This document shows, in pieces, positions 2,966 to 61,530 of a stretch of DNA of 64,000 nt. The notes below the pieces were generated by a model, which made no database searches, was not told the DNA's origin, and was given only the letters and a program-made list of their open reading frames with translations. The stretch is taken from assembly GCA_011033025.1 (NCBI GenBank), contig WFMF01000624.1, positions 23,918-87,917 of the forward strand. Reading direction: 5' to 3'. Numbering within the stretch: position 1 is the stretch's first letter; every line of letters starts with the position of its first letter. The DNA is from Beroe forskalii (Eukaryota; Ctenophora; Nuda; Beroida; Beroidae). The translations under genes were made by a program, and so were the position numbers.

Positions 2966-3715
2966 ATGGAGTTTGGAGGGGAAATTCGAAACTTTAATTT
3001 CTGCGAAAAAAAGCTTCCCACGCCCCCAACGGTAACCCAATATTGCCGACAATATTCTCAAAACCTTTACTCATCATAAGCAACTCGATAGCGAAGGAAT
3101 TTTGAAAAAAATTCGAAAATCTATTTTTTTTCGAAAAAAGGGCGTGGCCTCCCACGCCCCTTAGGGTGACCCAATAATTCGGACAAAATTCTCAAAACTT
3201 TTATTCATCATAAGCAACTTGATGGCGAAGGAATTTTGAAAAAATTCGAAAGTTTAATTTTTGCGAAAAAAAGGGCGTGGCCTCCCACGCTCCTCAGAGT
3301 GACCCAATAATTCGGACAAAATTCTCAAAATTTTTATTCATCATAAGCAACTCAATGGCGAAGGAATTTTGAAAAAATTCGAAAGTTTAATTTTTGCGAA
3401 AAAAGGGCGTGGCCCCCACGCCCCTCAGGGTGACCCAATAATTCGGACAAAATTCTCAAAATTTTTATTCATCATAAGCAACTCGATGGCGAAAGAATTT
3501 TGGAAAAATTCGAAACTTTAATTTTTGCGAAAAAAAGGGCGTGGCCCACCACGCCCCTCAGGGTGGCCGAAAAAATCTCATATTATTTTTCTGATTTATT
3601 ATAAAGTTTTTGCAACACGATGAAAAAAAAAATTTCGTTGCCTACTTGAAAACGAATCGCCATAAATAAATAAATATATATATATTAACAACACGCATTA
3701 TATATAGTAAGATGG
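2966..3715 (+). repeat. ~120-bp satellite block with unique tail (block S, copy 1)
   Basis: About 4.7 tandem units of roughly 120 bp, each containing GGGCGTGGCC, a GACCCAATAATTCGGACAAA phrase, TTCATCATAAGCAACTCGAT and TTTTGAAAAAATTCGAAA. The tail (3576-3715) holds TTTGCAACACGATGAAA and ends near a (TA)n run and ACAACACGCATTATATATAG. The same block occurs inverted at 38650-41790 and at 53773-55806, so it is a dispersed unit that has been captured here inside the 2184-6232 element. Confidence 0.75.
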
Positions 3716-20404: not shown

Positions 20405-20765
20405 AAAATCAAATCAAATAAAATATATATAAGATACATATAATATATAAATAAAACATGTAAATATATAATATTTAATAATAAATAATATATAATATAT
20501 ATAAAATATATATGAAATGTATAAAATATATATGAAATTTAATAAATATATATATGCAAAAACAATATATATAAAAAATAATATGTATAAAAAATAATAT
20601 ATATATAAAAAATAATATATATAAAAAATAAAATATATAAAAAATAATATATATATAAAAATAATATATATAAAAATAATATATAAAATAATATATAAAA
20701 TAATATATAAAATATATATAAAATAATATATATAAAAAATAATATATATATATATGAAAAATAAT
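20405..20765. repeat. AT block (ATAATATATATAAAAA)n
   Basis: Degenerate ATATATAAAAAATAAT repeat. Its reverse complement is split across 25055-25097, 27250-27418 and 32009-32155, with other elements between these pieces. Confidence 0.85.
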
Positions 20766-20774
20766 ACTATTTTT

Positions 20775-20905
20775 TTAGTGAGCCTTGTCGTACATGCACG
20801 TGTACGAGAAGGCTCACTAATAAAAAATAGTGATCATGAATTACTATTTTTACTAGTGAGCCTTCTCGTACATACACGTGTACGAGAAGGCTCACTAATT
20901 CTACG
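20775..20905. repeat. Hairpin array, AGTGAGCC type (two stems)
   Basis: Two palindromes of about 46 bp: AGTGAGCCTTGTCGTACA...TGTACGAGAAGGCTCACT (one arm mismatch) and AGTGAGCCTTCTCGTACA...TGTACGAGAAGGCTCACT. They are separated by AAAAAATAGTGATCATG, itself near-palindromic with TAGTGAATTACTATTTTT-like sequence. Mirrored at 24912-25040. Confidence 0.9.
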
Positions 20906-24911: not shown

Positions 24912-25050
24912 AATTAGTGAGCCTTCTCGTACACGTGTATGTACGAGAAGGCTCACTAGTAAAAATAGTAATTCATGATCACTATTTTTTATTAGTGAGC
25001 CTTCTCGTACACGTGCATGTACGACAAGGCTCACTAAAAAAAATAGTATT
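24912..25050. repeat. Hairpin array, AGTGAGCC type (right shoulder of IR2)
   Basis: Mirror image of 20775-20905, including the same single arm mismatch (TGTACGACAAGGCTCACT), so the two shoulders share a recent origin. Confidence 0.9.
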
Positions 25051-25097
25051 ATTTTTCATATATATATTATTTTTTATATATATTATTTTTTATATAT

Positions 25098-29849: not shown

Positions 29850-30568
29850 GGACGTTAAATATAGCATTCTTAGCAAGTTTGAGAATAAAGAGAACGACAA
29901 AGTAAGATGTCAGAAATTTCATAACGAAATAATGACACTAAGTTACAAAGCAACGTTTCAATATGATCAACATACCATGTTCACGCTAATACTTTTCTCC
30001 ATTACCTCGTATATATACCGACTATGAACTTAAAGCTGTCAAGTCGAGACACATGTTTAATGACTTCTCTGATTTCTAGTCAGAGCTCTCACTGTCATTA
30101 ACCATGCTTCACGACCAAACACTGTCATACCAATCAGCAATCTGAGCATTCACTTTCTCATTCAGGTTACTAATTAGCATCACAGGATCCACTCGGAATA
30201 CTAAAATACATACACATACACTAAATATACCAATCAGAGCAAACATATCAAATACAATTAAAATTAAGATTAATTAACCATCCTAGGTACGTCAAATAAG
30301 AATAGCTTATATGATTTCTCCTGAATGTTTAACTTAGGGTTAATCTTTTGGATAGACAGTGCCTCCTTGGTTCTACGCTTAAAAGTTTTATGTTCAAAAG
30401 TTAAAATTTTGGGACTGTCTGTGTTAAAAGTGTGGCCTGGATTTTCTAAAATATGTTTAGCGACTACTGAATCAGTCTTTGGGTCAGCATGTTCCTTCAT
30501 TCTATCCTGAATGTTTCGCGTTGTTTCACCAACATAATTGGCTTCACATTGCGAGCACTCAAGATAGT
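29850..30568 (-). pseudogene. Penelope-like element, 3' fragment 2 (inverted partner of the main copy)
   Basis: Reverse copy of about 31317-32005. The minus-strand frame from about 30568 to 30270 encodes the GIY-YIG domain from YYLECSQCEANYVGE to the normal end FDVPRMVN. It starts inside the domain, so it is 5' truncated. Only ~35 bp of AT sequence separate it from the plus-strand element, giving a head-to-head inverted pair. A frame read on the plus strand across 30489-30600 is antisense to this fragment and not a real N-terminus. Confidence 0.88.
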
Positions 30569-30603
30569 ATATATATATTATTTTTTATATATTTTATTTT
30601 TTA

Positions 30604-31616
30604 TTGAGAAGCGTGATGAAGATAATGGTATAGCTGATGTTGAGTTTTATGATAAATCTACACAAATGAGATATGTGGTTAGATGCTTTACACGTTATGT
30701 TGATGATATTTTAGCTGCATTTGAGAGCTCAGAGAAAGCTCACGAATTTTTAGCATTTCTTAACAGTTTACATGGTAATATAAAATTTACGATTGAAGAA
30801 GAAGTTATGGGGCGGATGCCCTTCTTGGACATATTGCTGATAAGAGAGAACGATCATATGTCAACCACAGTCTATAGGAAAACGACACACTCTGGGGTCT
30901 ATGCTCATTTCACTAGTTTTGTTCCATTTGCCCTCAAACTCCAATTGATAAGAACACTACTGCACAGAGCTTACGAGATCTGCAGCAGTTATGAGCTTCT
31001 TCATGCGGAATTTGAGAGAATAAAGCTAATGATGATGAACAATGGGTACAACAGGGATTACATCTACTCGGTTGTAAACCGCTTCCTTACAAGAAAGGCG
31101 TCAGAGAATAGACCTTTTGAAGGCCCCAAGCCAAAAGAGATCTATATCCGTCTCCCATTCCTTAAGGATAGCACTTACAAACTGGAGAAGTGTATCAATA
31201 GCTGTCTCAGCCAGATTAAGTGTGGCGCTCTCAGAGTCAAAGTATTTTACACTTACTCGAGAGTTTCTGATAGACTGAGGTTCAAGGATAGGTCTTCGAT
31301 CATCAACAATGCCATTTACTATCTTGAGTGCTCGCAATGTGAAGCCAATTATGTTGGTGAAACAACGCGAAACATTCAGGATAGAATGAAGGAACATGCT
31401 GACCCAAAGACTGATTCAGTAGTCGCTAAACATATTTTAGAAAATCCAGGCCACACTTTTAACACAGACAGTCCCAAAATTTTAACTTTTGAACATAAAA
31501 CTTTTAAGCGTAGAACCAAGGAGGCACTGTCTATCCAAAAGATTAACCCTAAGTTAAACATTCAGGAGAAATCATATAAGCTATTCTTATTTGACGTACC
31601 TAGGATGGTTAATTAA
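30604..31616 (+). pseudogene. Penelope-like retroelement polyprotein: C-terminal RT plus GIY-YIG endonuclease
   Basis: The open frame encodes about 336 residues. It begins mid reverse transcriptase: EKRDEDNG, then RYVDDILAAF with the catalytic YVDD at 30696-30707, GRMPFLDILL and STTVYRKTTHSGVYAHF (all typical of Penelope RTs). A linker with NRFLTRKASENRP follows, then the endonuclease from 31317: YYLECSQCEANYVGE, the conserved Arg in TRNIQDRMKEH, and NPGHTF. It stops normally after FDVPRMVN. The palm motifs before YVDD and the whole N-terminus are absent, so it cannot be autonomous, but the remaining frame has no stop. This suggests recent insertion. It belongs to the endonuclease-positive Penelope clade. 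Confidence 0.93.
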
Positions 31617-41321: not shown

Positions 41322-41871
41322 AAATAATGAGAAATTTTGTCGGCCACCCTGAGGGCATGGGTGGCCGCCCTTTTTCCGCAAAAATTAAACTTTAGAATTT
41401 TTTCAAAATTCCTTCGCTATCGTGTTGCTTATGATGAATAAAAATTTTGAGAATTTTGTCCGAATTATTGGGTCACCCTGAGGGGCGTGGGGGGCCACGC
41501 CCTTTTTTCGCAAAAATTAAACTTTCGAATTTTTCAAAATTCCTTCGCCATTGAGTTGCTTATGATGAATAAAAATTTTGAAAATTTTGTCCGAATTATT
41601 GGGTCACTCTGAGGAGCGTGGGAGGCCACGCCCTTTTTTCGCAAAATTAAACTTTCGAATTTTTTCAAAATTCATTCACCATCAAGTTGCTTATGATGAA
41701 TAAAAAGTTTTGAGAATTTTGTCCGAATTATTGGGTCACCCTAAGGGGCGTGGAGGCCACACCCTTTTTTCGCAAAATAGATTTCAGCCTGTTCATAGAA
41801 CAAGCACAGATACACGCCTAGAATCAGAAGCAATCATGCTTTTTTACGACACAATTTACTGCATTGACAAA

Positions 41872-46704: not shown

Positions 46705-47034
46705 ATATGATAGTTATATCAATTGTTATCAGTGTCTTCAGGCGTCAAAAACTCAAATTAGAATGCTGTAATTCCATATATCAGATTTGCTATTTTTGAA
46801 GGAAAATTCTTGAGAATTTTTCGGGTTTTTTTGCAAAAATGGGACAATTTTTGGTACTTTTTTCGAATTTTTCAGTGAAAAAAGTACGAGGTACTTTTCG
46901 AAATTTTCCTCAGACACCATACCATCCTTTGGGAACATATTATGTTCCATGAAATAAGTACCTTAACCCCCCCGCTCACAGCACCAAGGAAGTTAGCAGC
47001 AAAGCAGTCCGTTAATTTTTTGTGGGCAGCACGG

Positions 47035-47400
47035 TGCGTCTGACACCTCACACCACCTTAGTCCTAACTACCTTGACACCACCTCACTACCTTGACACCA
47101 CCTTCCTATTTCTAAATTACACCGCATCACAACCTTGACATCACCGCTTTTCAAGCTTGACACCACCTTACTACATTGACACCATCTACAACCTTGACAT
47201 CGTATCTCAAACTTGACCCCGCCTTACTACCTTGACACCGCTTTTCTGCCTTGACACCACCTCACTACCTTGACACCACCTTCCTATTTCTACACCACCT
47301 CACTACATTAACACCACCTTACTAGCTTGACACCATATACCAGTACCACCGTCTCGCAAACTCGACACCGCCTTACTAACTTGACAACACCTTATTATCA
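47035..47400 (+). repeat. ~20-bp repeat TACCTTGACACCACCTTAC
   Basis: About 17 degenerate units (ACCTTGACACCACCTCACT and variants). The inverted copy at 59480-59860 keeps the same order of variants, as expected from arm duplication. Confidence 0.85.
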
Positions 47401-47595
47401 ACAAACAGTGAAGAAGAGGAGAAGAGTAAAATGATGAGATGAGGTTAGGTATGTATGTATCTTTTGTAAATGATGAGGTAGTGATGAGGTAGTGATGAGG
47501 TAGTGATGAGGTAGTATGTATGTATGTTCGAAAATGGCCGATTTTTGATGAGCTCATTTCTGGAAGGCCCCTGAGCAGTTGCACAAATTATATGC

Positions 47596-48345
47596 GGTCA
47601 TACGAGCGAATTACTGCGGGAGACTCCCGGGAGTCCTACGGGGGTACTCCGAGAGTACCCCCGGGAGTCCTCCGCCATTACACACTTTTTAGATCTAGTG
47701 GGGGCCGAGGCCGGAGCCCCCGTCCCTGGCCCTAGATTTATTCTAGGGGGGCTTTTTGAAAACTAAAGGGGCCTAAATTTTCATAAGCGAATTTTCACAT
47801 TTCCAAGCCCTATACTAATTTTTCATAAAAATACAACTAAAATCATGTTTTATGTTTGCTTTGATTCTGAAAAGATGAATTTCAAGGAAACTTCAGTTTA
47901 TTTGAACTTGGTTTTACACTTCATTTTGCTGTTAAAATTTTCGAGAAAATCCTAGGTAGGGCCAAGACCCCCCTAAGATTTTTCAATGTGGGCCTCTTCA
48001 AAACTGGGGGAGGGGGGGCGTGTAATGCCAAGAGTACTAAGGGAGTCCTACGGGAGTACCCCGGTATCACGGTGAGCACCTCAGCGTGTAGAGTTATAAA
48101 ATATTATTGTCCTTGATTTTCACGTTCAATCTGTCTTAATCGTGGAATAAAATAGGAAAGTGGCAGGATAAACTCAGATATGTCCACGGTGAGTTTTTGT
48201 TGAAAAGTTGAAGTGGCAGGATTAAGCACGGATATGTCCGTGAGATGGCCACTGGCCAGCAACAAAGTTCCTATTGCTAGCCTCTGTCCCCCTGAGTCCC
48301 GGATGACTCCCGGAGAGTCTCCCGGAGTAATTTGCTCGTATGACC
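47596..48345. mobile_element. 750-bp TIR element G (left arm)
   Basis: Ends GGTCATACGAGCGAATTACT...GGGAGACTCCCGGGAGTC and, inverted, GACTCCCGGAGAGTCTCCC...TTTGCTCGTATGACC, about 40 bp with few mismatches. The outer part of each TIR is itself palindromic (GACTCCCGGGAGTC). The interior contains a second CTCCGAGAGTACCCCC palindrome at 47645. No target duplication was found. Confidence 0.75.
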
Positions 48346-48923
48346 ACTGTTTGCAATACAAACAGTATACCGCTACTAAATTGCATGGTCGCCCAAACGA
48401 GAAGGGCGATAATGAATTATTTACAGTACTAGAGTACTAGAATGATACTTTCTCACATTTTGAGCCACGTTGATACCGTTCAGAGCTAGCTCGAGACGGT
48501 TGGACACTAGAAATGCGAGAAGTTAAGTATCAATTGCTTAAAGTATTAATACACGGTATAATGGTATGGTATAGCCTACTGTGTTAATAAGGGTGGGAGT
48601 AGACTACAAATTATTTTATCAATGCTTTAATTTGTTTAAACTCATGTTCCTTTCTTCAGGTTGTACCGGCCGATCCTACTCCTGCCTCCGGTAGTCCTGG
48701 TACTCCTTTGAAAGTTTGAAGTGCTGATCAAGATTTCCTGATCTGATACGAATCGTCCTCCTACACCATGGGACATTTGCAATGGAATTTGTAAACTTTT
48801 CCTATTCATTACATATTCATCATTGCAATCAGTACTCAAACCTATAGTCATCAGCTGTTCATTATGCAATATGCAACCCTTCCGGTGGTTTATTAACTTC
48901 TCTTTTTCCCATTATGCACCATT

Positions 48924-49096
48924 GGTCGTAAGAAAGTATACCAATTAAAAACAGTGTTAAAATAGTGATCAGAGAGTGGCCAGGAGGAGTTCACCAGGGG
49001 GTCAGCAGGGGTTCACCAGGAGGGTGTTAGCAGGGGGGTCAAGAGGACGTCAGCAGAGGGTCACCAGGGGGGTCATTGGTATACTTTCATACGACC
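48924..49096. mobile_element. 173-bp TIR element H (left arm)
   Basis: 22-bp ends GGTCGTAAGAAAGTATACC(AAT) and inverted ATTGGTATACTTTCATACGACC. The inside is GTCAGCAGGGGTTCACCAGG-type repeats. The ends resemble those of element G (GGTCATAC), so the two may use one transposase. Confidence 0.75.
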
Positions 49097-49901
49097 CTTT
49101 CATGCACCATTTGATTATGAACACTTGAATCAGGACTTACATTCAAGGACTTACATTCAAGCGGTATTTTTATTACATATTACGGGATATTGCTGAAGTT
49201 TACCTAATGGGCGAATATAGCTACTGGTTTAATTTATCAGTTTTGAAATCTGTCGTAACCTACCATCTGCTCATTTGTGGTCATCAGTCAACTGCAAAGC
49301 GTAAATTTAAGTTATTAAAAGAGCTGTTAAACTCATGTCAACTTGAGATATTAGAAGCAACAGAGCATTGGGAACAAGCTTCGCTCTTTCAGATTTCTAG
49401 TAGTTTTACCGCTTTTGGTACCCTTTCTGGGCATTTGAGTTTTTAGTGATGAATGATGAGCTCAAATGCCCATAATTGTGTTATATTTGCGGGATCCCTG
49501 ACTTCAGTTCCGTTCTCATTAATGTTGCATAATGTTGCATCTAGGAAATACAAGAGGGTATATATAATATTTATTGTATCAAAAATTGTGATTCATAGCT
49601 ATTTAAACTTATATCAACTAATTAAACAAAAAGTATGAAATGTTTTACTTTGTTTCTCTAAATTTTCGCAAAATGTGTTTTCTCTTCTTGTCTTCAGCGC
49701 TGCTCACTTGATTTAAACATGGTTATTCATGAATCAAAGAAATGTGCTCTGATAGCATTAACAGTAGGCGTTATGAACTCAATATGGCAGTTATCAATGC
49801 TTGAGTGGATCTCAAATCAATTGCAGATTAGATTTTGATTAAAAATAAAAGGAAATAGTTTTCCACTTGTTGCGGAAATAACATTATACATGTGAGAAAC
49901 T

Positions 49902-50141
49902 AAAGCGCCCGCAACGCTCGTCGGTCGATCGAACGGAACCGGTCGATCGATCAACTTCATTTGATCGACTGATGTGTTCTAAATAGAAAATCTTTAAGCT
50001 AGTAGGGAAACAACTAAATATTGCCCATTTAAACACGATTTAAGTCATTAGGGACCAGTAAAACTCATTATTCATTCAAATGGAGTTGATCGATCGACCA
50101 ACTCCACTCGATCGACCGACGAACGCCACGGGCGCCTGAAG
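49902..50141. mobile_element. 240-bp element K, present only in the left arm
   Basis: The right arm reads GAGAAACTCGCAGATATAG across the site; the left arm reads GAGAAACT, 240 bp, then CTCGCAGATATAG, i.e. a 2-bp CT duplication (49900-49901, 50142-50143). Ends AAAGCGCCCGCAACGCTCGT and inverted ACGAACGCCACGGGCGCC share GCGCCCG plus CGTCGGTCGATCGA. Additional GATCGATCGACC palindromes lie inside. Too short to encode anything. Confidence 0.85.
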
Positions 50142-50890
50142 CTCGCAGATATAGATTCGTATTTTCATGAAAATCATGATAATAATCTTGAGGACGCTGT
50201 GGATTATTAAAATCAATTGAGCAGAACTAACTAACCAAGAAGAGAGAACTCGAAATTTTACTGGGTAGTGTACCGCGTATAAAAGGCAGTGCTGCAAAAT
50301 TTAAACTTCCCATTGCGGTTTCTTTTGGGGGTTTTTGTAGATTTAGCTGCTGCAATTGAACTTCCCTTTAATTACCAATTAGTAGAAAGCATTGAATTTA
50401 TGGCGATTTTGACAATTTCAGGAGTATTTAACATGAAAAACCATGAAAAATTGGATGTCGCGTTTGTGGGTAGGGGAGCAGGCTGGGAATTGGGTACGTC
50501 GGGAATTGCCGGGATTTCGTAGTTATCCTTTTTGGCCGTTGAAAAGGTTCAATCCCGGCTGAGTTTCTGATATTATGATGATGGCATTGTCCGTGGTTCC
50601 TTCAAGTGTTTGGCAGATTGCCAATTCTAGTCCTTATCATCGCTGAAAATTGTGTGATTAAACGTCATCAGCTAACGGCCATACAAATGACGGTACTATT
50701 TTTCGCCACCACCTATATTCGGAAACTTCTGGGCACAAATTTTGTATTTTATGGAATGCGCGATTAACATTTTATCGACGCGCGCGCAAAATAGTGAAGT
50801 AAATTTTCCGGTCAAAATTTTTTTCAAAAAATATCTGTCGGAATCAGGGGCGTTTCTTCAAAGCAGAATGCCGAACATAAGGTCAATATA

Positions 50891-52187
50891 CTGCCGTGAT
50901 CTGGAAAAAGGAAGTAACTGCAAATTTTGAAGTTTTGGAGATATGGGTACCAAAATTTTCAGCTCGTTGAGCTCTACAAGATGAGCTACTGTAAAGCCAT
51001 TAATTTTCGCGAGGCATTAATTTTCGCGAATTTATTTGGAAAAGAAAATCCGCGAAAATATCAGACGTGAAGTTAATTTTCAATTTTGGAGATAAATTTA
51101 TATATCTGCGTTTTTCGAGTCCAATTCATTTGCCGTTATTCCCTCTTAAGTATTCCATAGATTGGTTTGTCATCAAGGCATTATTTTTCAACCCAAAGTG
51201 TCTCATTAGAAACATTAAGCCTTCAACTAAGATCTCAGTATCGTTTACGAATGACATGCTGTAATGTCTGACAGACACACTTAAGTAAACATAGACGAAC
51301 AAGACACCTCATTAAACCGGGCTTTTGCCTTTATACAATCACCGGCTATCAAGGTTTACAGCAATTAGCGAAAATGTTAAATGACCACGTACAAGCACTG
51401 GTTTATCTTCAAGAGTTCAAGGGATATTGAAATGCGTGAAAATTAAAACCGTGAAATTAGTCTGATTTTAAAGAAACGCGAAAAATAGCACCCGCGAAAA
51501 TATGTGGCTTTACAGTATGTCATTGGAATGAGAAATGCTCCTGAAAAAACTCGAAAAGAAGTAACTGCAGTTTTTGAGAACATTTCAGCGATTTTGTGAT
51601 TTTGTTATCTGGAAGAAGGAAGTATCTCACGCAGATACTTCCTTTTTCCAGATAAACCTTGAAAATTGGGCACTTACTTCCCTTTTGAGACAGTTTTCTC
51701 CAGAGTGTTCAAATTATAATTTGTAAAAAGGAAGTATCTTACTGATTATTCATGCCTTATACTTCTTTTTTCTAGGTAATACTCTCATAAAGGCCAGAAT
51801 TGAAAGGAAGTATCTTACATAGATACTTCCTTTTTCCAAATAAACCTTGAAAATGTGTTAGTTACTTCCTCTACTGAACATAGTTTGGTGTGCTGTTTCA
51901 AGATAAAAGGAAGTAACTGACAAATGTCCCAGAAAAAGGAAGTAACTGCAGTTTTAGTCGGAATTTCTTTCAAATCATTAGCAATTAACCCATTACTGTG
52001 GATGCACTGATTATTGAATAGAAATAAAAATTAGCGAGCGAGAATTTATGATCATTCACCTCTCAGTATATATGAATTTCACCATATCTATCCGAAAATA
52101 AATTGTCGAGAAAATGTGAAACGCAAAAGTGCGATTATCTCGAAACGAAGTTCATGCTAGTTACTTCCTTTTTCCAAATCACGGCAG
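50891..52187. mobile_element. 1.3-kb TIR element C with GGAAGTAACT repeats
   Basis: Ends CTGCCGTGATCTGGAAAAAG (50891) and, inverted, CTTTTTCCAAATCACGGCAG (to 52187), flanked by TATA on both sides; the duplication is TA or TATA. GGAAGTAACTG / GATACTTCC motifs recur about ten times inside, in both orientations. It carries nested element D. The right arm lacks it, although the missing block there is wider (50793-52510). Confidence 0.8.
50990..51515. mobile_element. 526-bp TA-flanked MITE D nested in element C
   Basis: Ends CTGTAAAGCCATTAATTTTC and, inverted, GAAAATATGTGGCTTTACAG, with TA on each side (50988-50989, 51516-51517), as for Tc1/mariner-type insertion. ATTTTCGCGA phrases repeat just inside both ends. 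A 65-codon frame inside is not recognised. Confidence 0.82.
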
Positions 52188-52510
52188 TATAGCTCATAAG
52201 AAAGGGCTATTTCTGCCCTAACTAATGAACCAAAACTTTTCCCCATGAACCCAACAGGAAAGTCAAGCGAGGCAATTGAAAAAAGGTGGTCGAAAAATCG
52301 ATAATTTGGGCTTTCAACGGAAATCTCTCGCTTCCTATTGATAGAAACAACTTTAAATTTGTACTGGGTTCAAGATTAATGTATTTTCTTTCGAATGAAA
52401 TAAAGATCACTGGATTTAATAAATCAGAAGCGAAGATATGGTCACTGCAAGATGTCTGATTGGACCGAATTTTCGCGCAAAAATAGCGCCGCGCCAATAA
52501 TTATGACACC

Positions 52511-52835
52511 CTACTGTACACGAGTATGTACGAAAAAGCTCACTAAAAAAAATATAGCGACTACTATTTTTGTTTAGTGAGCCTTTTTCGGCATACACGT
52601 CTACTGAAAACTCACTAATGAAAAATAGCGATCACTATTTTTATTTAGTGGGCCTTCTCGTACATACGCGTACGAGGAGGCTCACTAATTGTATTTAGTG
52701 AGCCTTCTCGAACACGCGTATGTACGAGAAGGCTCACTAATAAGAAATAGTGACCACTATTTTTCATTAGTTGTTAGTGAGCCTTCTCGTACACGTGTAT
52801 GTACGAGAAGGCTCACTAAAAAAAAATAGTGATGA
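52511..52835. repeat. Hairpin array, AGTGAGCC type (left arm, five stems)
   Basis: One half and four full palindromes of 44-48 bp with stem AGTGAGCCTTCTCGTACA, spaced about 60-65 bp. Spacers such as AAAAATAGTGATCACTATTT are also self-complementary. The central loop differs from stem to stem (ACACGTGTAT, ATACGCG, CACGCGTAT). The first stem begins CCCTACTGTACACGAG, similar to the terminal CCCTACGGTGTACGAG read inward from 53242. Confidence 0.9.
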
Positions 52836-52837
52836 CA

Positions 52838-53239
52838 TATATTAAATATATATCTTATATGTTATATTTTATATATATGTATTATTTTTTTCATATATAT
52901 ATTATTTTCATATATATATTATTTTCATATATATATTATTTTCATATATATATTATTTTCATATATATATTATTTTTTTTCATATATATATTATTTTTTA
53001 TATATATTATTTTCATATATATATTATTTTTTCATATATATTATTTTTTATATATATATTTATTAATTTTATATATTTTATATATTTCATATATTTTATA
53101 TATTTCATATATTATATATATTATATATTTTATATATTTTATATATCATATTCAATTCATATACATATATTTTATATGTTTTGTTTATATATTATATGTA
53201 TCTTATATATATTTTATTAGTGAGCCTTCTCGTACACCG
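52838..53239. repeat. AT block (CATATATATTATTTT)n ending in a half hairpin
   Basis: TTTTCATATATATATTA units change at about 53050 into TATATATTTCATATATTTTA, then TTAGTGAGCCTTCTCGTACA and CCGTA at 53216-53239. The inverse partner in the right arm is 55807-56050. Confidence 0.85.
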
Positions 53240-53672
53240 TAGGGAGGTGTTATGTTATGTGTTGACTTTTGATGTGATGAGGCTGCCATTTGGGGCAGGC
53301 AGCACCGACGAGTTGAAGTGTTCCTGTTGCAGCCATCAAGGGATTAGATGCCTTCCATGCCCAGTAATTCCTATTGCCAGGCGTTGCCTGGCCCCCTCGC
53401 GCGCGCGAAGCGCGCGCGCCCCGCAGGCAACGTCTGGCAAAATTCCTACGATTCAAAAGGTTGAGACACCAACGTTAACTTTAAGAATAAATTCAAACCG
53501 AAAAAAGAAAACAGCATCGACTTTCAGATTAGATTAAAAAAACAGACGGCAGACAGAATAGTATTCAAATCCAATTCAATTTCACATGGGCAGTTTTACA
53601 AATACATACTGATAATGATGAGTTGAACTCAATGTGCCGGTTCCCCTAACCAGGGGTGTCGCGAATTAACGA
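53240..53672. other. Central sequence left of the gap
   Basis: Not shared with the right arm. Contains the GC hairpin at 53375-53439; nothing else recognised. GCCTGGCCCCCTCGC resembles a phrase at 19503-19525. Confidence 0.4.
53375..53439. repeat. 65-bp GC hairpin with GCGAAGC tip
   Basis: TGCCAGGCGTTGCCTG pairs with CAGGCAACGTCTGGCA, and the inner CGCGCGCGC pairs with GCGCGCGCG around GAA. The tip GCGAAGC is an exceptionally stable DNA mini-hairpin, and such structures often stop sequencing, which may relate to the nearby gap. Confidence 0.9.
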
Positions 53673-53772
53673 NNNNNNNNNNNNNNNNNNNNNNNNNNNN
53701 NNNNNNNNNNNNNNNNNNNNNNNNNNNNNNNNNNNNNNNNNNNNNNNNNNNNNNNNNNNNNNNNNNNNNNNN
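53673..53772. other. Assembly gap (100 N)
   Basis: Exactly 100 Ns, the customary placeholder for a gap of unknown length. It lies in the centre of the long inverted duplication. Confidence 0.97.
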
Positions 53773-53966
53773 CGTGTTGCAAAACTTTATAATGAATCAG
53801 AAAATATAGAAATTTTTTTGCGGCCAATTTGAGGGGAGATGGGGGGCCACGCCCTTTTTTCGTCAAAATTAAAGTTTCTGAATTTTTTCAAAATTCCTTC
53901 TCATCGAAAGGTTCCTTGGTGATGAATAAAAATTTTGAGAATTTTGTCCGCAATATTGTTGTTTGA

Positions 53967-55231
53967 GTACGGTAAAAATTGGTGAAGGATAAGTTATTGT
54001 ACCCCTTTTAAAAAATAAATAACTTTATCCTTCTGGGATTTGTGTGTCCCAAAAGGATAAATTATTTTTATTTTTGAAAGAAAAATAACTTATCCTTCTG
54101 GTACACGAGAAAACCAGAAGGATAAGTTATTTTTATTTTGAAAGAAAACATAATCTATTCTTTTCTGGATGAGTGTGTCCTGTGAAGAAGGAAAGTATTT
54201 TATTTTTGAAAAGAAAAATAACTTATCCTTCTGGGACACGAGTGTGTCCTGAATGAGCTGTTATTTTTAACTTTAAAGAAAAAACCATCCTTCTGGGACA
54301 CGAAAAATCCCGGGAAAGGGGGGTTATTTTTAATTTTTTTAAAAAAATTTAATTTTTCCTTTTGGGGTATTGGGGGCCCGAAGGGTGGGGTTTTTTTTTT
54401 CAAGGTGTGTGTATTGGAGCGCCATTTTTTGGAAAAATTTTTTGGTCCGGGAGGCGAAGTCTGGCAGGTCATGCAGGTGGATTTTGTTTGGGGGCCTCGA
54501 CCCCCTTTTTTAAAAAATGTTTATCCCTTTTGGTTCGGGAGAAAAACCCGCGGCTCAGGAACACAACTCTGCAAGTCGGGGGTCAGTTCCTAAGCCCGCA
54601 TAGGGGTGATTCCCCCAAAACCCTAAGGGAAAACCGGCCAAAAAAAGCAAAACAGCCAGACAAAAAATGTTTAGGGGGGTCAGGCAACACCTGACAAGTT
54701 TGCTAATGGATGACACTTGCTAGACTCCCCCGCAGGCACTTTTATGGTTTTAAAGAAAGATTTTGTACACAGTGTTAATACTGCCTACTGTAAAAATAAA
54801 AATAACTTATCCTTCTGGGATGATCAGAACAGAAGGATGTTATTTTCTTTTTCAAAATTAAAAAATAACTTATCCTTCTGGGATATACTAGAAAACTTAG
54901 AAGGATAAGCTATTTTTCTTTTAAAATTAAAATAACTTATCCTTCTGGGACATTACTGTGTTCTAGAAGGATAAGTTATTTTTCTTTTCAAAATAAAAAT
55001 AACTTATCCTTCTGGGACACACTGTGTATCAGAAGGATATATTTTTATTTTCAAAATAAAAAATAACTTATCCTTTCTGGGACATTTACCTGTACTAGAA
55101 GGATAAGTTATTTTTCTTTTTTCAAAAATAAAAAATAATTTATCCTTTGGGATATTATTCGTGTCCCAGAAGGATAAGTTATTTCTATTTTTTAAAAAGG
55201 TACAATAACTTATCCTTCTGGTACACCGTAC
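53967..55231. mobile_element. Hairpin-array element M1: ~11 AACTTATCCTTCTGG stems with TIRs
   Basis: Left end GTACGGT, then AAGGATAAGTTATTGTACC and TTTTAAAAAATA. The inverted right end reads GTACGGTGTACC, AGAAGGATAAGTTATTG, TACC and TTTTTAAAAAATA, so the TIRs run about 55 bp. TGA flanks both sides (53964-53966, 55232-55234). The interior is a row of palindromes with stem AATAACTTATCCTTCTGG, different 10-17-nt loops, and spacers such as TTTTCAAAATAAAAA. The stretch 54290-54700 lacks clear stems and looks corrupted or foreign. No protein is encoded. Confidence 0.82.
54290..54790. other. Homopolymer-rich interruption in the hairpin array
   Basis: G, T and A runs suggest poor base calling through a structured region. 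The second half contains CCTAAGCCCGCATAGGGGTG (the 19735 hairpin family) and GTCAGGCAACACCTGAC, so another palindromic element may be nested here. Confidence 0.5.
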
Positions 55232-56059
55232 TGAGGGGCGTGGGAGGCCACGCCCTTTTTCGCAAAATTAAAAATTTCGAATTTTTAAAAATTCTTTTCG
55301 CCATTGTGTTGCTTTTATAATGAATAAAAATTTTGAGGATTTTTTCCCCCAATATTGGGTCGCCCCTGAGGGGCGTGAGGGCCACGCCCTTTTCCGTCAA
55401 AATTAAATTTTCGAATTTTTCAAAATTCCTTCGCCATCGAGTTGCTTATGATGAATAAAAATTTTGAGAATTTTGTCCGAATTATTGGTCATTCTGAGGG
55501 GCGTGGAGGTCACGCCCTTTATTTCGCAAAATTTAAGTTTCGAATTTTTCGAAATTCCTTCGCCATCAAGTTGTTTATGATCAGTTAAGCTTTGAGAATT
55601 TTGTCCGCATGATTGTCGTTCTGAGGGGCGTGGAGGCCACGCCCTTTTTTCCGAAAATTTAAATTCGAATTTTTTCAAAATTCTTCCGCCATCGAGTTGC
55701 TTATGATGAGTAAAGGTTTTGAGAATATTGTCGGCAATATTGGGTTACCGTTGGGGGCGTGGGAAGCTTTTTTTCGCAGAAATTAAAGTTTCGAATTTCC
55801 CCTCCAAAATCAAATATATAAAATATATGAAATATATAAAATATATAAAATTAATAAATATATATATAAAAAATAATATATATGAAAAAATAATATATAT
55901 ATGAAAATAATATATATATATGAAAAAAATAATATATATATGAAAATAATATATATATGAAAATAATATATATATGAAAATAATATATATATGAAAAAAA
56001 TAATACATATATATAAAATATAACATATAAGATATATATTTAATATATGTCATCACTAT

Positions 56060-56385
56060 TTTTTTTAGTGAGCCTTCTCGTACATACACGTGTACGAGAA
56101 GGCTCACTAATGAAAAATAGTGGTCACTATTTCTTATTAGTGAGCCTTCTCGTACATACGCGTGTTCGAGAAGGCTCACTAAATACAATTAGTGAGCCTC
56201 CTCGTACACGCGTATGTACGAGAAGGCCCACTAAATAAAAATAGTGATCGCTATTTTTCATTAGTGAGCCTTCTCGTACACGTGTATGTACGAAAAGGCT
56301 CACTAAACAAAAATAGTAGTCGCTATATTTTTTTTAGTGAGCTTTTTCGTACATACTCGTGTACGAGGAGGCTCACTATTTTGCG
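56060..56385. repeat. Hairpin array, AGTGAGCC type (right arm, five stems)
   Basis: Inverse of 52511-52835 with one difference: the outermost stem is complete here (56336-56380) but halved in the left arm. Confidence 0.9.
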
Positions 56386-57849
56386 CGCGCGCGTCGATAA
56401 AATGTTAATCGCGCATTCCATAAAATACAAAATTTGTGCCCAGAAGTTTCCGAATATAGGTGGTGGCGAAAAATAGTACCGTCATTTGTATGGCCGTTAG
56501 CTGATGACGTTTAATCACACAATTTTCAGCGATGATAAGGACTAGAATTGGCAATCTGCCAAACACTTGAAGGAACCACGGACAATGCCATCATCATAAT
56601 ATCAGAAACTCAGCCGGGATTGAACCTTTTCAACGGCCAAAAAGGATAACTACGAAATCCCGGCAATTCCCGACGTACCCAATTCCCAGCCTGCTCCCCT
56701 ACCCACAAACGCGACATCCAATTTTTCATGGTTTTTCATGTTAAATACTCCTGAAATTGTCAAAATCGCCATAAATTCAATGCTTTCTACTAATTGGTAA
56801 TTAAAGGGAAGTTCAATTGCAGCAGCTAAATCTACAAAAACCCCCAAAAGAAACCGCAATGGGAAGTTTAAATTTTGCAGCACTGCCTTTTATACGCGGT
56901 ACACTACCCAGTAAAATTTCGAGTTCTCTCTTCTTGGTTAGTTAGTTCTGCTCAATTGATTTTAATAATCCACAGCGTCCTCAAGATTATTATCATGATT
57001 TTCATGAAAATACGAATCTATATCTGCGAGTTTCTCACATGTATAATGTTATTTCCGCAACAAGTGGAAAACTATTTCATTTTATTTTTAATCAAAATCT
57101 AATCTGCAATTGATTTGAGATCCACTCAAGCATTGATAACTGCCATATTGAGTTCATAACGCCTACTGTTAATGCTATCAGAGCACATTTCTTTGATTCA
57201 TGAATAACCATGTTTAAATCAAGTGAGCAGCGCTGAAGACAAGAAGAGAAAACACATTTTGCGAAAATTTAGAGAAACAAAGTAAAACATTTCATACTTT
57301 TTGTTTAATTAGTTGATATAAGTTTAAATAGCTATGAATCACAATTTTTGATACAATAAATATTATATACATTGTATATATTGTATACCCTCTTGTATTT
57401 CCTAGATGCAACATTATGCAACATTAATGAGAACGGAACTGAAGTCAGGGATCCCGCAAATATAACACAATTATGGGCATTTGAGCTCATCATTCATCAC
57501 TAAAAACTCAAATGCCCAGAAAGGGTACCAAAAGCGGTAAAACTACTAGAAATCTGAAAGAGCGAAGCTTGTTCCCAATGCTCTGTTGCTTCTAATATCT
57601 CAAGTTGACATGAGTTTAACAGCTCTTTTAATAACTTAAATTTACGCTTTGCAGTTGACTGATGACCACAAATGAGCAGATGGTAGGTTACGACAGATTT
57701 CAAAACTGATAAATTAAACCAGTAGCTATATTCGCCCATTAGGTAAACTTCAGCAATATCCCGTAATATGTAATAAAAATACCGCTTGAATGTAAGTCCT
57801 TGAATGTAAGTCCTGATTCAAGTGTTCATAATCAAATGGTGCATGAAAG

Positions 57850-58020
57850 GGTCGTATGAAAGTATACCAATGACCCCCTGGTGACCCTCTGCTGACGTCC
57901 TCTTGACCCCCTGCTAACACCCTCCTGGTGAACCCCTGCTGACCCCCTGGTGAACTCCTCCTGGCCACTCTCTGATCACTATTTTAACACTGTTTTTAAT
58001 TGGTATACTTTCTTACGACC
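57850..58020. mobile_element. TIR element H (right arm)
   Basis: Inverse copy of 48924-49096 with the same GGTCGTA ends. Confidence 0.75.
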
Positions 58021-58598
58021 AATGGTGCATAATGGGAAAAAGAGAAGTTAATAAACCACCGGAAGGGTTGCATATTGCATAATGAACAGCTGATGACTAT
58101 AGGTTTGAGTACTGATTGCAATGATGAATATGTAATGAATAGGAAAAGTTTACAAATTCCATTGCAAATGTCCCATGGTGTAGGAGGACGATTCGTATCA
58201 GATCAGGAAATCTTGATCAGCACTTCAAACTTTCAAAGGAGTACCAGGACTACCGGAGGCAGGAGTAGGATCGGCCGGTACAACCTGAAGAAAGGAACAT
58301 GAGTTTAAACAAATTAAAGCATTGATAAAATAATTTGTAGTCTACTCCCACCCTTATTAACACAGTAGGCTATACCATACCATTATACCGTGTATTAATA
58401 CTTTAAGCAATTGATACTTAACTTCTCGCATTTCTAGTGTCCAACCGTCTCGAGCTAGCTCTGAACGGTATCAACGTGGCTCAAAATGTGAGAAAGTATC
58501 ATTCTAGTACTCTAGTACTGTAAATAATTCATTATCGCCCTTCTCGTTTGGGCGACCATGCAATTTAGTAGCGGTATACTGTTTGTATTGCAAACAGT

Positions 58599-59296
58599 GG
58601 TCATACGAGCAAATTACTCCGGGAGACTCTCCGGGAGTCATCCGGGACTCAGGGGGACAGAGGCTAGCAATAGGAACTTTGTTGCTGGCCAGTGGCCATC
58701 TCACGGACATATCCGTGCTTAATCCTGCCACTTTCCTATTTTATTCCACGATTAAGACAGATTGAACGTGAAAATCAAGGACAATAATATTTTATAACTC
58801 TACACGCTGAGGTGCTCACCGTGATACCGGGGTACTCCCGTAGGACTCCCTTAGTACTCTTGGCATTACACGCCCCCCCCTCCCCCAGTTTTGAAGAGGC
58901 CCACATTGAAAAATCTTAGGGGGGTCTTGGCCCTACCTAGGATTTTCTCGAAAATTTTAACAGCAAAATGAAGTTTAAAACCAAGTTCAAATAAACTGAA
59001 GTTTCCTTGAAATTCATCTTTTCAGAATCAAAGCAAACATAAAACATGATTTTAGTTGTATTTTTATGAAAAATTAGTATAGGGCTTGGAAATGTGAAAA
59101 TTCGCTTATGAAAATTTAGGCCCCTTTAGTTTTCAAAAAGCCCCCCTAGAATAAATCTAGGGCCAGGGACGGGGGCTCCGGCCTCGCCCCCCACTAGATC
59201 TAAAAAGTGTGTAATGGCGGAGGACTCCCGGGGGTACTCTCGGAGTACCCCCGTAGGACTCCCGGGAGTCTCCCGCAGTAATTCGCTCGTATGACC
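58599..59296. mobile_element. TIR element G (right arm)
   Basis: Inverse copy of 47596-48345, shorter by about 50 bp: the left arm carries a second AAGTGGCAGGAT... phrase near 48165-48225 that is missing here. Confidence 0.75.
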
Positions 59297-59479
59297 GCAT
59301 ATAATTTGTGCAACTGCTCAGGGCCTTCCAGAAATGAGCTCATCAAAAATCGGCCATTTTCGAACATACATACATACTACCTCATCACTACCTCATCACT
59401 ACCTCATCACTACCTCATCATTTACAAAAGATACATACATACCTAACCTCATCTCATCATTTTACTCTTCTCCTCTTCT

Positions 59480-59860
59480 TCACTGTTTGTTGATAATAAG
59501 GTGTTGTCAAGTTAGTAAGGCGGTGTCGAGTTTGCGAGACGGTGGTACTGGTATATGGTGTCAAGCTAGTAAGGTGGTGTTAATGTAGTGAGGTGGTGTA
59601 GAAATAGGAAGGTGGTGTCAAGGTAGTGAGGTGGTGTCAAGGCAGAAAAGCGGTGTCAAGGTAGTAAGGCGGGGTCAAGTTTGAGATACGATGTCAAGGT
59701 TGTAGATGGTGTCAATGTAGTAAGGTGGTGTCAAGCTTGAAAAGCGGTGATGTCAAGGTTGTGATGCGGTGTAATTTAGAAATAGGAAGGTGGTGTCAAG
59801 GTAGTGAGGTGGTGTCAAGGTAGTTAGGACTAAGGTGGTGTGAGGTGTCAGACGCACCGT
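59480..59860 (-). repeat. ~20-bp repeat, right-arm copy
   Basis: GTAAGGTGGTGTCAAGGT units; inverse of 47035-47400. Confidence 0.85.
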
Positions 59861-60028
59861 GCTGCCCACAAAAAATTAACGGACTGCTTTGCTGCTAACT
59901 TCCTTGGTGCTGTGAGCGGGGGTTAAGGTACTTATTTCATGGAACATAATATGTTCCCAAAGGATGGTATGGTGTCTGAGGAAAATTTCGAAAAGTACCT
60001 CGTACTTTTTTTCACTGAAAATTCGAAA

Positions 60029-61202
60029 ACGACCGGTTACAGTTTTCGAAAATTCCGGTTTCGGTTTCGGTTTCGGTTAACCAATTTATGGAATGTCGGT
60101 AACGGTTACGGTTACGGTTTGCCAAATTCATTAACGTAGGTTACGGTTTCGGTTACGGTTAGTAACAGCCAAAAACCGCGGTTACGGTTTCGGTTACGGT
60201 TTGCTCAAATTAACGGTTTTTATTCGGTTCGGTTCGGTTAGTGGACATTTTAAAATCTTTGACTCAAAATTTTAAATAGTCTATCCTATAGTAGTGAAGT
60301 ACCTATAGTAGTGAAGTACCTTTCCTATATTTGTCGATAAACATAATATTATACATTATGCAAACTGTACCAAACGAGTTACAACATGCGAACTGCTGCC
60401 TCTCACTCTAAATATCATGTTAACTTCAATATCTTCTATAGTTCTATCCATCCAGTGTATTTGCGTTGTTATTGGTCGGCTAATATTATCGAGTGGCGAA
60501 GCCACGAGATGATATCAGCCGACCATTAACGCTCTTATTTTCCAACACACAAGAACTTTTAACCAATAGCAGTTCGTTGGATACGTTGGATCGGACATAA
60601 TTATCACGGACTCTAGTTTCACGGACATAAAACTTCACGGACATTAATATTCACGCTCGATCCAACCACCTCAAATTTTAAGAAATCTTCAAAATACTCG
60701 GCTCGACTTCTCCCGTTTCCTTCCACGACTTGATAGTTGATTACTTACTTGAAGATTTTTCCCTCCCCATTGGCCTTTTTGTGTATACAAAAAGGCAAGA
60801 AGGAGGGTTGGTAGAGATCGTGGTCAGGGAAGGTTAGAAATAGGATATGTGTATATCAGGTCGAGGTTTGCAATACAACTACTGTAATTTCTGGAAAGTG
60901 CCTGGATTTCTCCTTTATAATATCAGTCGCGAAAATGTCTCTCCGTCCCTCCGTGTCCCATTTTCACAAAATGTTCAAAATCACGAATTTCTCAATTTTG
61001 GAGATGTCGATTATCAAAAACGTAAATCTTTTAGGCTGACCAGGCCCATCCGTGCCACATATTGCTCGAACTCTCCTAAATTATGATAAGTTCTAAATTA
61101 ATTAAAAGGGCTGATGAAGATTTCGTGTCTGAAAATCTTAGGACTGAGTTGGGCTATGGATTGTAGGAAAAGGCTTCGGTTCTGTACTTCGTTAAGTGCC
61201 AA
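60029..61202. other. Start of the right-arm-only block; (GGTTTC)n-like repeats
   Basis: 60040-60240 is dense in CGGTTTCGGTTTCGG and CGGTTACGGTTACGG. The same repeat closes the block at 63565-63690 in the same orientation. In between are a 51-bp hairpin (60474-60524), short CACGGACAT repeats (60607-60645) and GGCCTTTTTGTGTATACAAAAAGGC (60772-60795). No gene. Confidence 0.5.
60474..60524. repeat. 51-bp hairpin with GCGAAGC tip
   Basis: GGTCGGCTAATATTATC pairs imperfectly with GATGATATCAGCCGACC around GTGGCGAAGCCAC; again the GCGAAGC mini-hairpin sequence. Confidence 0.85.
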
Positions 61203-61204
61203 AG

Positions 61205-61530
61205 TCAGTCAATCAGTCAGTTAATCAGTCAGTCAATCAGTCAGTCAATCAGTCAGTCAATCAGTCAGTCAATCAGTCAGTCAATCAGTCAGTCAATCAG
61301 TCAGTCAGTCAATCAGTCAGTCAATCAGTCAGTCAATCAGTCAGTCAGTCAGTCAATCAGTCAGTCAATCAGTAAGTCAGTCAGTCAGTCAATCAGTCAG
61401 TCAATCAGTCAGTCAATCAGTCAGTCAATCAGTCAGTCAATCAGTCAGTCAATCAGTCAGTCAATCAGTCAGTCAATCAGTCAGTCAATCAGTCAGTCAA
61501 TCAGTCAGTCAATCAGTCAGTCAATCAGTC
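61205..61530 (+). repeat. Microsatellite (AATCAGTCAGTC)n
   Basis: About 27 units of 12 bp with a few 4-bp expansions (extra CAGT). Long enough to be length-polymorphic. Confidence 0.95.

Follow-up and report, generated by a model that had tools for sequence, protein, structure and literature searches.

Galileo, a transposon of the P superfamily in Drosophila, makes target duplications of 7 bp. Transposase-binding sites have been identified in the tandem repeats of its arms (PMC3688188), and arms of tandem repeats are also reported for the foldback element Tetris of Drosophila virilis (PMC4079207) and for gadMor-hAT-1784, a miniature inverted-repeat transposable element (MITE) of Atlantic cod (PMC12368964). 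Here we describe a hairpin array at positions 53968-55230 of a 64,000-nucleotide stretch from the ctenophore Beroe forskalii (contig WFMF01000624.1, positions 23,918 to 87,917; hereafter the window), which belongs, as a decayed copy, to a repeated transposon family. We regard this hairpin-array family, with a probability of about 0.8, as a non-autonomous, foldback-type, cut-and-paste DNA transposon that would depend on a transposase acting in trans, with ends TACGGTGTACCAGAAGGATAAGTTATT and arms composed of hairpin units whose halves repeat the end motif. An initial annotation of the window had considered clean tandem hairpins with variable loops unusual for a MITE, a view that the arms of Tetris and of the cod element do not support.

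The cod element is the closest published structure among the literature compared. As far as its available description goes, it has terminal repeats of ~600 bp made of tandem units, tandem internal inverted repeats and no coding frame, like the family described here, whereas its units are 167-169 bp long and it has been assigned to hAT (PMC12368964). Tetris is likewise non-autonomous, with a repeat that partly resembles the terminus and no transposase found in the portion of the account available, but it differs in its 8-10-bp duplications, its ~220-bp units and its placement in Mutator by its authors (PMC4079207). Galileo shares the long, internally repetitive terminal repeats; in contrast, its THAP transposase is known, and its repeats are not described as hairpins in the accessible text (PMC3688188). 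Tm1, a Mutator/foldback element of root-knot nematodes, is distinguished by mostly 9-bp duplications, units of 13-15 bp and the existence of a transposase-coding member (PMC3169594). The family differs from the cod element in a unit that forms a near-perfect hairpin from two copies of the element end. Among the open papers listed in the literature searches, none describes such a unit or mentions this family.

Dispersed copies, target duplications and empty sites

Searches were carried out on the 216-Mb genome (1134 contigs), and genome-wide match counts are lower bounds. The mitochondrial COX1 of this genome uses TGA for Trp, and in an alignment with a solved COX1 chain 5 of its 7 AGR codons are at Arg positions; together with the fast divergence of the gene, these features would suggest a ctenophore. 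The terminal 23-mer, with up to two mismatches, occurs at 42 + 58 = 100 places at least, and the 15-mer of the hairpin stem has 377 + 367 exact matches, while the reversed controls gave 0 and 0 + 0, respectively. Three sets of 20 stretches around such ends were taken, five stretches of the last set being devoted to a second family (see below). Facing ends could be paired into 27 elements, which account for 54 of the 100 places and lie on 25 contigs; the window copy is additional, its left end being too decayed for the search with the terminal 23-mer. The initial annotation had proposed that the array behaves as a mobile element and had named the lack of any other locus with both ends as the outcome that would speak against it; the 27 paired elements, together with target duplications and empty sites, bear out the proposal. 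Individual loci are referred to below by L numbers.

Amongst these 28 elements, 18 are flanked by exact 5-bp duplications and a further two (L018 and L031) by exact 6-bp duplications, compared with 7 matches in 756 mispaired flanks. Terminal inverted repeats (TIRs) that are common to dispersed copies and a target duplication of constant length are both features of TIR transposons, and both are present here. The window copy had been thought to lie between two TGA triplets and to start with GTACGGT. Instead, the duplication is 5 bp long (ttgag at 53963-53967 and ctgag at 55231-55235, both on the plus strand, with 4 of 5 bases alike), the element begins with TACGGT, and the G before it is part of the flanking DNA.

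Empty sites were sought for 22 elements within 315 kb around the elements, and 8 of the 22 match across the junction. Several of these eight matches are poor or lie in repeats; of the four that were inspected closely, that of L039 is clean over 200 bp. Its empty paralogue, L068, is on the same contig, carries a single ATTAT at the junction and is identical at 190 of 207 positions. L068 is found a few kb from L039 (both on contig C370) in inverted orientation with 92% identity. The two thus form another local inverted duplication, in addition to the one around the window copy (see below). For the window copy, the proposed position inside a satellite unit proved correct, and the empty units that were to be looked for are present: once joined, its flanks can be aligned across the junction with ~130-bp satellite units near 3000-3500, 41400-41800 and 55200-55800 (11 alignments, 76-84% identity, with small indels at the junction). 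The combination of ends, duplications and empty sites shows movement of the cut-and-paste type.

A dispersed hairpin satellite might also give tandem ~69-bp units of varying number, but it would leave unexplained the constant ends, the target duplications and the empty sites, as well as the coincidence of the ends with the limits of the array, as the initial annotation had expected of a transposon. It is contradicted by the duplications in particular, and we consider it very improbable.

Element length ranges from 379 to 6231 bp, and the longest elements carry inserts. By eye, the insert in L022 is apparently a retroelement without long terminal repeats, whereas that in L025 lies just beyond a complete core and contains a 436-aa frame that has no Pfam match.

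Hairpin units and the architecture of the arms

The terminal repeat of the family is ~66 bp long and consists of TACGGTGTACCAGAAGGATAAGTTATT, GTACC, a T/A run and ATAACTTATCCTTCTGG. In the 22 elements compared, 42 of the 44 ends are within 3.5 edits of a single consensus of this length. The ~55-bp TIRs of the initial annotation are recovered as a 55-nt inverted repeat, 82% identical between the ends of the window copy, although the terminal repeat itself extends to ~66 bp. Inward of it are tandem units of ~69 bp with A/T-rich spacers between them. The consensus unit is a hairpin with the stem AAAAATAACTTATCCTTCTGGGACAC and the 4-base loop GAGT, and single units fold well below dinucleotide shuffles (z from -6.1 to -14.0 for five window units and two from other copies).

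Both halves of the hairpin repeat the subterminal motif of the element end, GTGT[A/C]CCAGAAGGATAAGTTATT. The inner terminus GTGTACCAGAAGGATAAGTTATT recurs in both unit halves as GTGTCCCAGAAGGATAAGTTATT, with identity at 22 of 23 bases (GTGTACC.. versus GTGTCCC..). This likeness between the consensus half and the terminus would also be expected if the arms had grown by self-insertion, i.e. by elements inserting into the hairpin loops or ends of other copies, after which recombination removed the rest and left joined half-ends as hairpins. Intact termini are indeed found at hairpin loops in L036 (beside GTGTG) and L042 (beside CACAC), and a near-intact one in L035. However, these are only three cases, none has both inner ends and a duplication on each side, and the common internal spacers are unlike the terminal spacer, which argues that most units are not recent copies of the end. 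Growth by self-insertion is therefore unlikely in our view. Equally doubtful is the broader picture that goes with it, in which the transposon would build its arms from its own ends, each hairpin being the fossil of two head-to-head ends and the array an accumulating series of disused ends to which transposase would still bind.

Loops in the window copy are variable, and had been taken as a property of the array. The consensus loop GACAC-GAGT-GTGTC or its variant with TACAC, either as such or as the complement, is present in 52 of the 85 hairpins detected in the 22 elements, and the variable loops of the window copy thus reflect decay rather than design. Loops read GAGT in the left half of the element and ACTC in the right half, a polarity that follows the arm in 76 of the 81 hairpins that could be scored; another 4 were ties. 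The arms are thus mirror images of each other, and the whole element can fold back.

Between the arms is a core of ~470 bp. In comparisons with L030 its whole length can be aligned with other copies in both orientations, so the core is also a palindrome. In three of the 22 elements (L021, L023 and L026) neighbouring stems are never more than about 150 bases apart, and these elements thus lack the core. A short hairpin around CACACACCTATGYGGGCTTAGGAAC is found in the element core (e.g. L030 and L038) and also as a separate repeat at the flanks of L018, L019 and L026; elements of the family seem to have inserted into this separate CACACACCTATGYGGGCTTAGGAAC hairpin repeat.

The number of detected stems, a comparison suggested by the initial annotation, varies from 9 in the window copy to 27 per copy in the 22 elements. 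Long TIRs with tandem repeats of variable number are the mark of foldback elements and, by its structure, the family is a foldback-type, non-autonomous TIR transposon.

Candidate transposases, proposed mechanism and class

The long elements L020, L022, L025 and L028 and the unpaired ends were read for frames, and a selection of 14 frames, chosen by eye and without those of L022, was scanned against Pfam. Matches were obtained for 8 of the 14, all to reverse transcriptase, GIY-YIG, SpoU, papain, PHD or LRR domains, and three of these were below the curated cut-off. Among the first six proteins there were one GIY-YIG and one RVT_1 match, both below the cut-off, and four proteins without a match; the other eight gave RVT_1 twice, SpoU, papain, LRR and PHD, the last just below the cut-off, with two proteins unmatched. 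The DNA beside unpaired ends, as far as scanned, consists of retroelements and host genes. No transposase gene was thus seen in the copies inspected, as would be expected of MITEs and other non-autonomous elements, and the enzyme is probably supplied in trans.

In the mechanism that we propose, such a transposase would recognise the ends TACGGTGTACCAGAAGGATAAGTTATT, and insertion generates the observed target duplication of 5 bp, sometimes 6 bp. The arm repeats, through each CCAGAAGGATAAGTT half, would provide putative additional binding sites, as in Galileo. Since binding sites lie in the arm repeats of Galileo and the arms of Tetris share part of the terminus, the array may serve to multiply binding sites. 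Unequal exchange or slippage, among units as well as between arms, would then alter the number of units.

Pairwise alignment shows that copies differ by whole units. L038 and L030 differ by gaps of 63, 66 and 65 bp (also 43 and 24), and the 40 best pairwise comparisons contain at least 65 gaps of 61-76 bp. Once the divergence of each unit is corrected for, the units of a single copy show a slight excess of similarity (78 inner segments; residual -0.35, a value as low being reached in 1 of 3000 shuffles), consistent with local duplication or with exchange between the arms. A conserved order of units was not seen, units of the same index in different copies scoring 4.27 versus 4.24 for units of different index. 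The earlier suggestion that units expand inside a transposon shell is thus likely to hold, as expansion or exchange, given whole-unit differences and within-copy likeness; slippage would be one possible route.

Several observations weigh against this interpretation. Eight of the 28 pairs have no exact 5- or 6-bp duplication, of which three (the window copy included) have one mismatch in five bases and five (L028, L035, L036, L041 and L043) have two to four. Satellite units vary around the junction of the window copy, so that its duplication is not fixed to the base by them. No transposase was found in the copies inspected, and binding of transposase to the arm repeats is argued by analogy with other families. 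The 40 best comparisons also contain at least 41 gaps of 20-30 bp, almost as many as of unit length, and within repeats the aligner is biased towards gaps of a whole unit. The effect of within-copy similarity is small. Finally, the genome has 23 hAT domain matches; in the 15 examined over 400 bp on their downstream side, no exact ACACCGTA occurs. Two near-misses of 8 bases with one mismatch (L086 and L088) compare with an estimated two or so expected by chance.

The last result also bears on the superfamily. The end TACGG, with A at position 2 and G at position 5, resembles the ends of hAT transposons, and hAT domains are encoded in the genome (the 23 matches above). A duplication of 5 bp argues against the Mutator-type foldbacks and fits the hAT5 group, which is defined by 5-bp duplications (PMC12730594); that group was defined on autonomous hAT transposons, none of which is linked to the hairpin-array family. 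As no hAT gene with these ends was encountered (0 of 15, within 400 bp), specific membership in hAT5 is a tentative assignment, somewhat less probable than its alternatives taken together. The ends or duplications do not fit the other classes compared. Transib/RAG transposons have 5-bp duplications and ends that begin with CAC, whereas the ends here begin with TACGGT. In the P/Galileo group the duplication is 7-8 bp, and in Mutator/foldback elements such as Tetris and Tm1 one of 8-10 bp would be expected, compared with 5-6 bp here.

The window copy, related repeats and significance

The window copy (TACGGT...ACCGTA, 1263 bp, without assigned strand) inserted into a satellite unit long ago and has since decayed. 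It is amongst the most decayed of the family, with the fewest detected stems of 22 elements. Its left TIR (53968-54036, plus strand, TACGGTAAAAATTGGTGAAGG...) is 12.5 edits from the family consensus, the second worst of 44 ends after the left end of L019 (16), while the right TIR (55166-55230, minus strand) is near consensus with 2 edits. The array is not continuous, as had been supposed, since its two blocks are separated by some 400 bp of degraded core (about 54377-54787, plus strand). From about 54452 on, longer stretches of this core are 68-76% identical to the palindromic core of other copies. The left block (54006-54376, plus strand) has tandem hairpin units of ~66 bp, as determined from repeat families and the folds of two units, and the right block (54788-55192, minus strand) has units of ~67 bp, as determined from a repeat search and the folds of three units. 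The count of eleven palindromic units was accurate: eleven copies with at least 60% identity are detected, six in the right block and five in the left, of which the fifth and last is badly decayed. No Rfam family matches the window at gathering thresholds.

The host satellite flanks the element on the plus strand, at 53773-53962 on the left, where it is cut by a gap of 100 N (53673-53772), and at 55236-55743 on the right, where the later units are empty sites. On a larger scale, the element is flanked by an inverted duplication (46860-53081 and 55809-60029) with ~99% identity in the outer parts and 93% in the inner AT-rich part; the gap is close to the middle, and one arm has an extra 1.7 kb (50798-52509) that the other lacks. 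This is either a head-to-head join of allelic contigs or a genuine palindrome. The gap, the ~99% duplication on both sides and the messy core might together suggest that the element was created by assembly, but a further 27 paired copies lie on 25 other contigs and 20 of these copies have exact duplications, and an artefact is hardly credible.

A second hairpin-array family, with the stem TTAGTGAGCCTTCTCGTAC and AT-rich arms, occurs in the window at 20754-20899, 24913-25071, around 32158, 52510-53241 and 56053-56378. Its terminus TACGGTGTACGAGAAGGCTCAC has at least 7 copies in the genome; the outer ten bases TACGGTGTAC are common to both families, as are AGAAGG one base beyond TACGGTGTAC and the style of hairpin. 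One enzyme may serve several such hairpin-array families. L069 and L070, unpaired ends of the second family, were rejected as autonomous candidates, as they share only 48-87 bp with their relatives.

Tiny hairpins of 47-83 bp with ends TTCCCCTAACCAGG/TTGCCCTAACCAGG also look mobile (L066:4700-4746, L018, L025, two in L031, L036 and L041). In 315 kb there are 10 distinct candidate pairs (from 11 rows, since one place is listed twice), six of which have exact flanking repeats of 8-10 bp and one of 7 bp, counted with shifts of up to two bases and without a control. The tiny hairpin in L066 interrupts the end of an element of the family, with the flanking repeat CTTTTTTAG. Elsewhere in the window there are 27 copies of the 12-bp unit AGTCAGTCAATC with 96% match (61203-61530), and a frame at 30471-31613, which looks Penelope-like, has a weak match to GIY-YIG that is below the cut-off.

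Foldback elements have repetitive arms whose origin is unclear. Here, the arm is made of a palindromic unit whose halves copy the element end, and the family thus allows two questions to be tested, namely whether such arms provide a series of transposase-binding sites, and whether slippage, exchange or self-insertion underlies their growth. The mirror-image arms are also a candidate cause of inversions, as proposed for the cod element in the available part of its description (PMC12368964).
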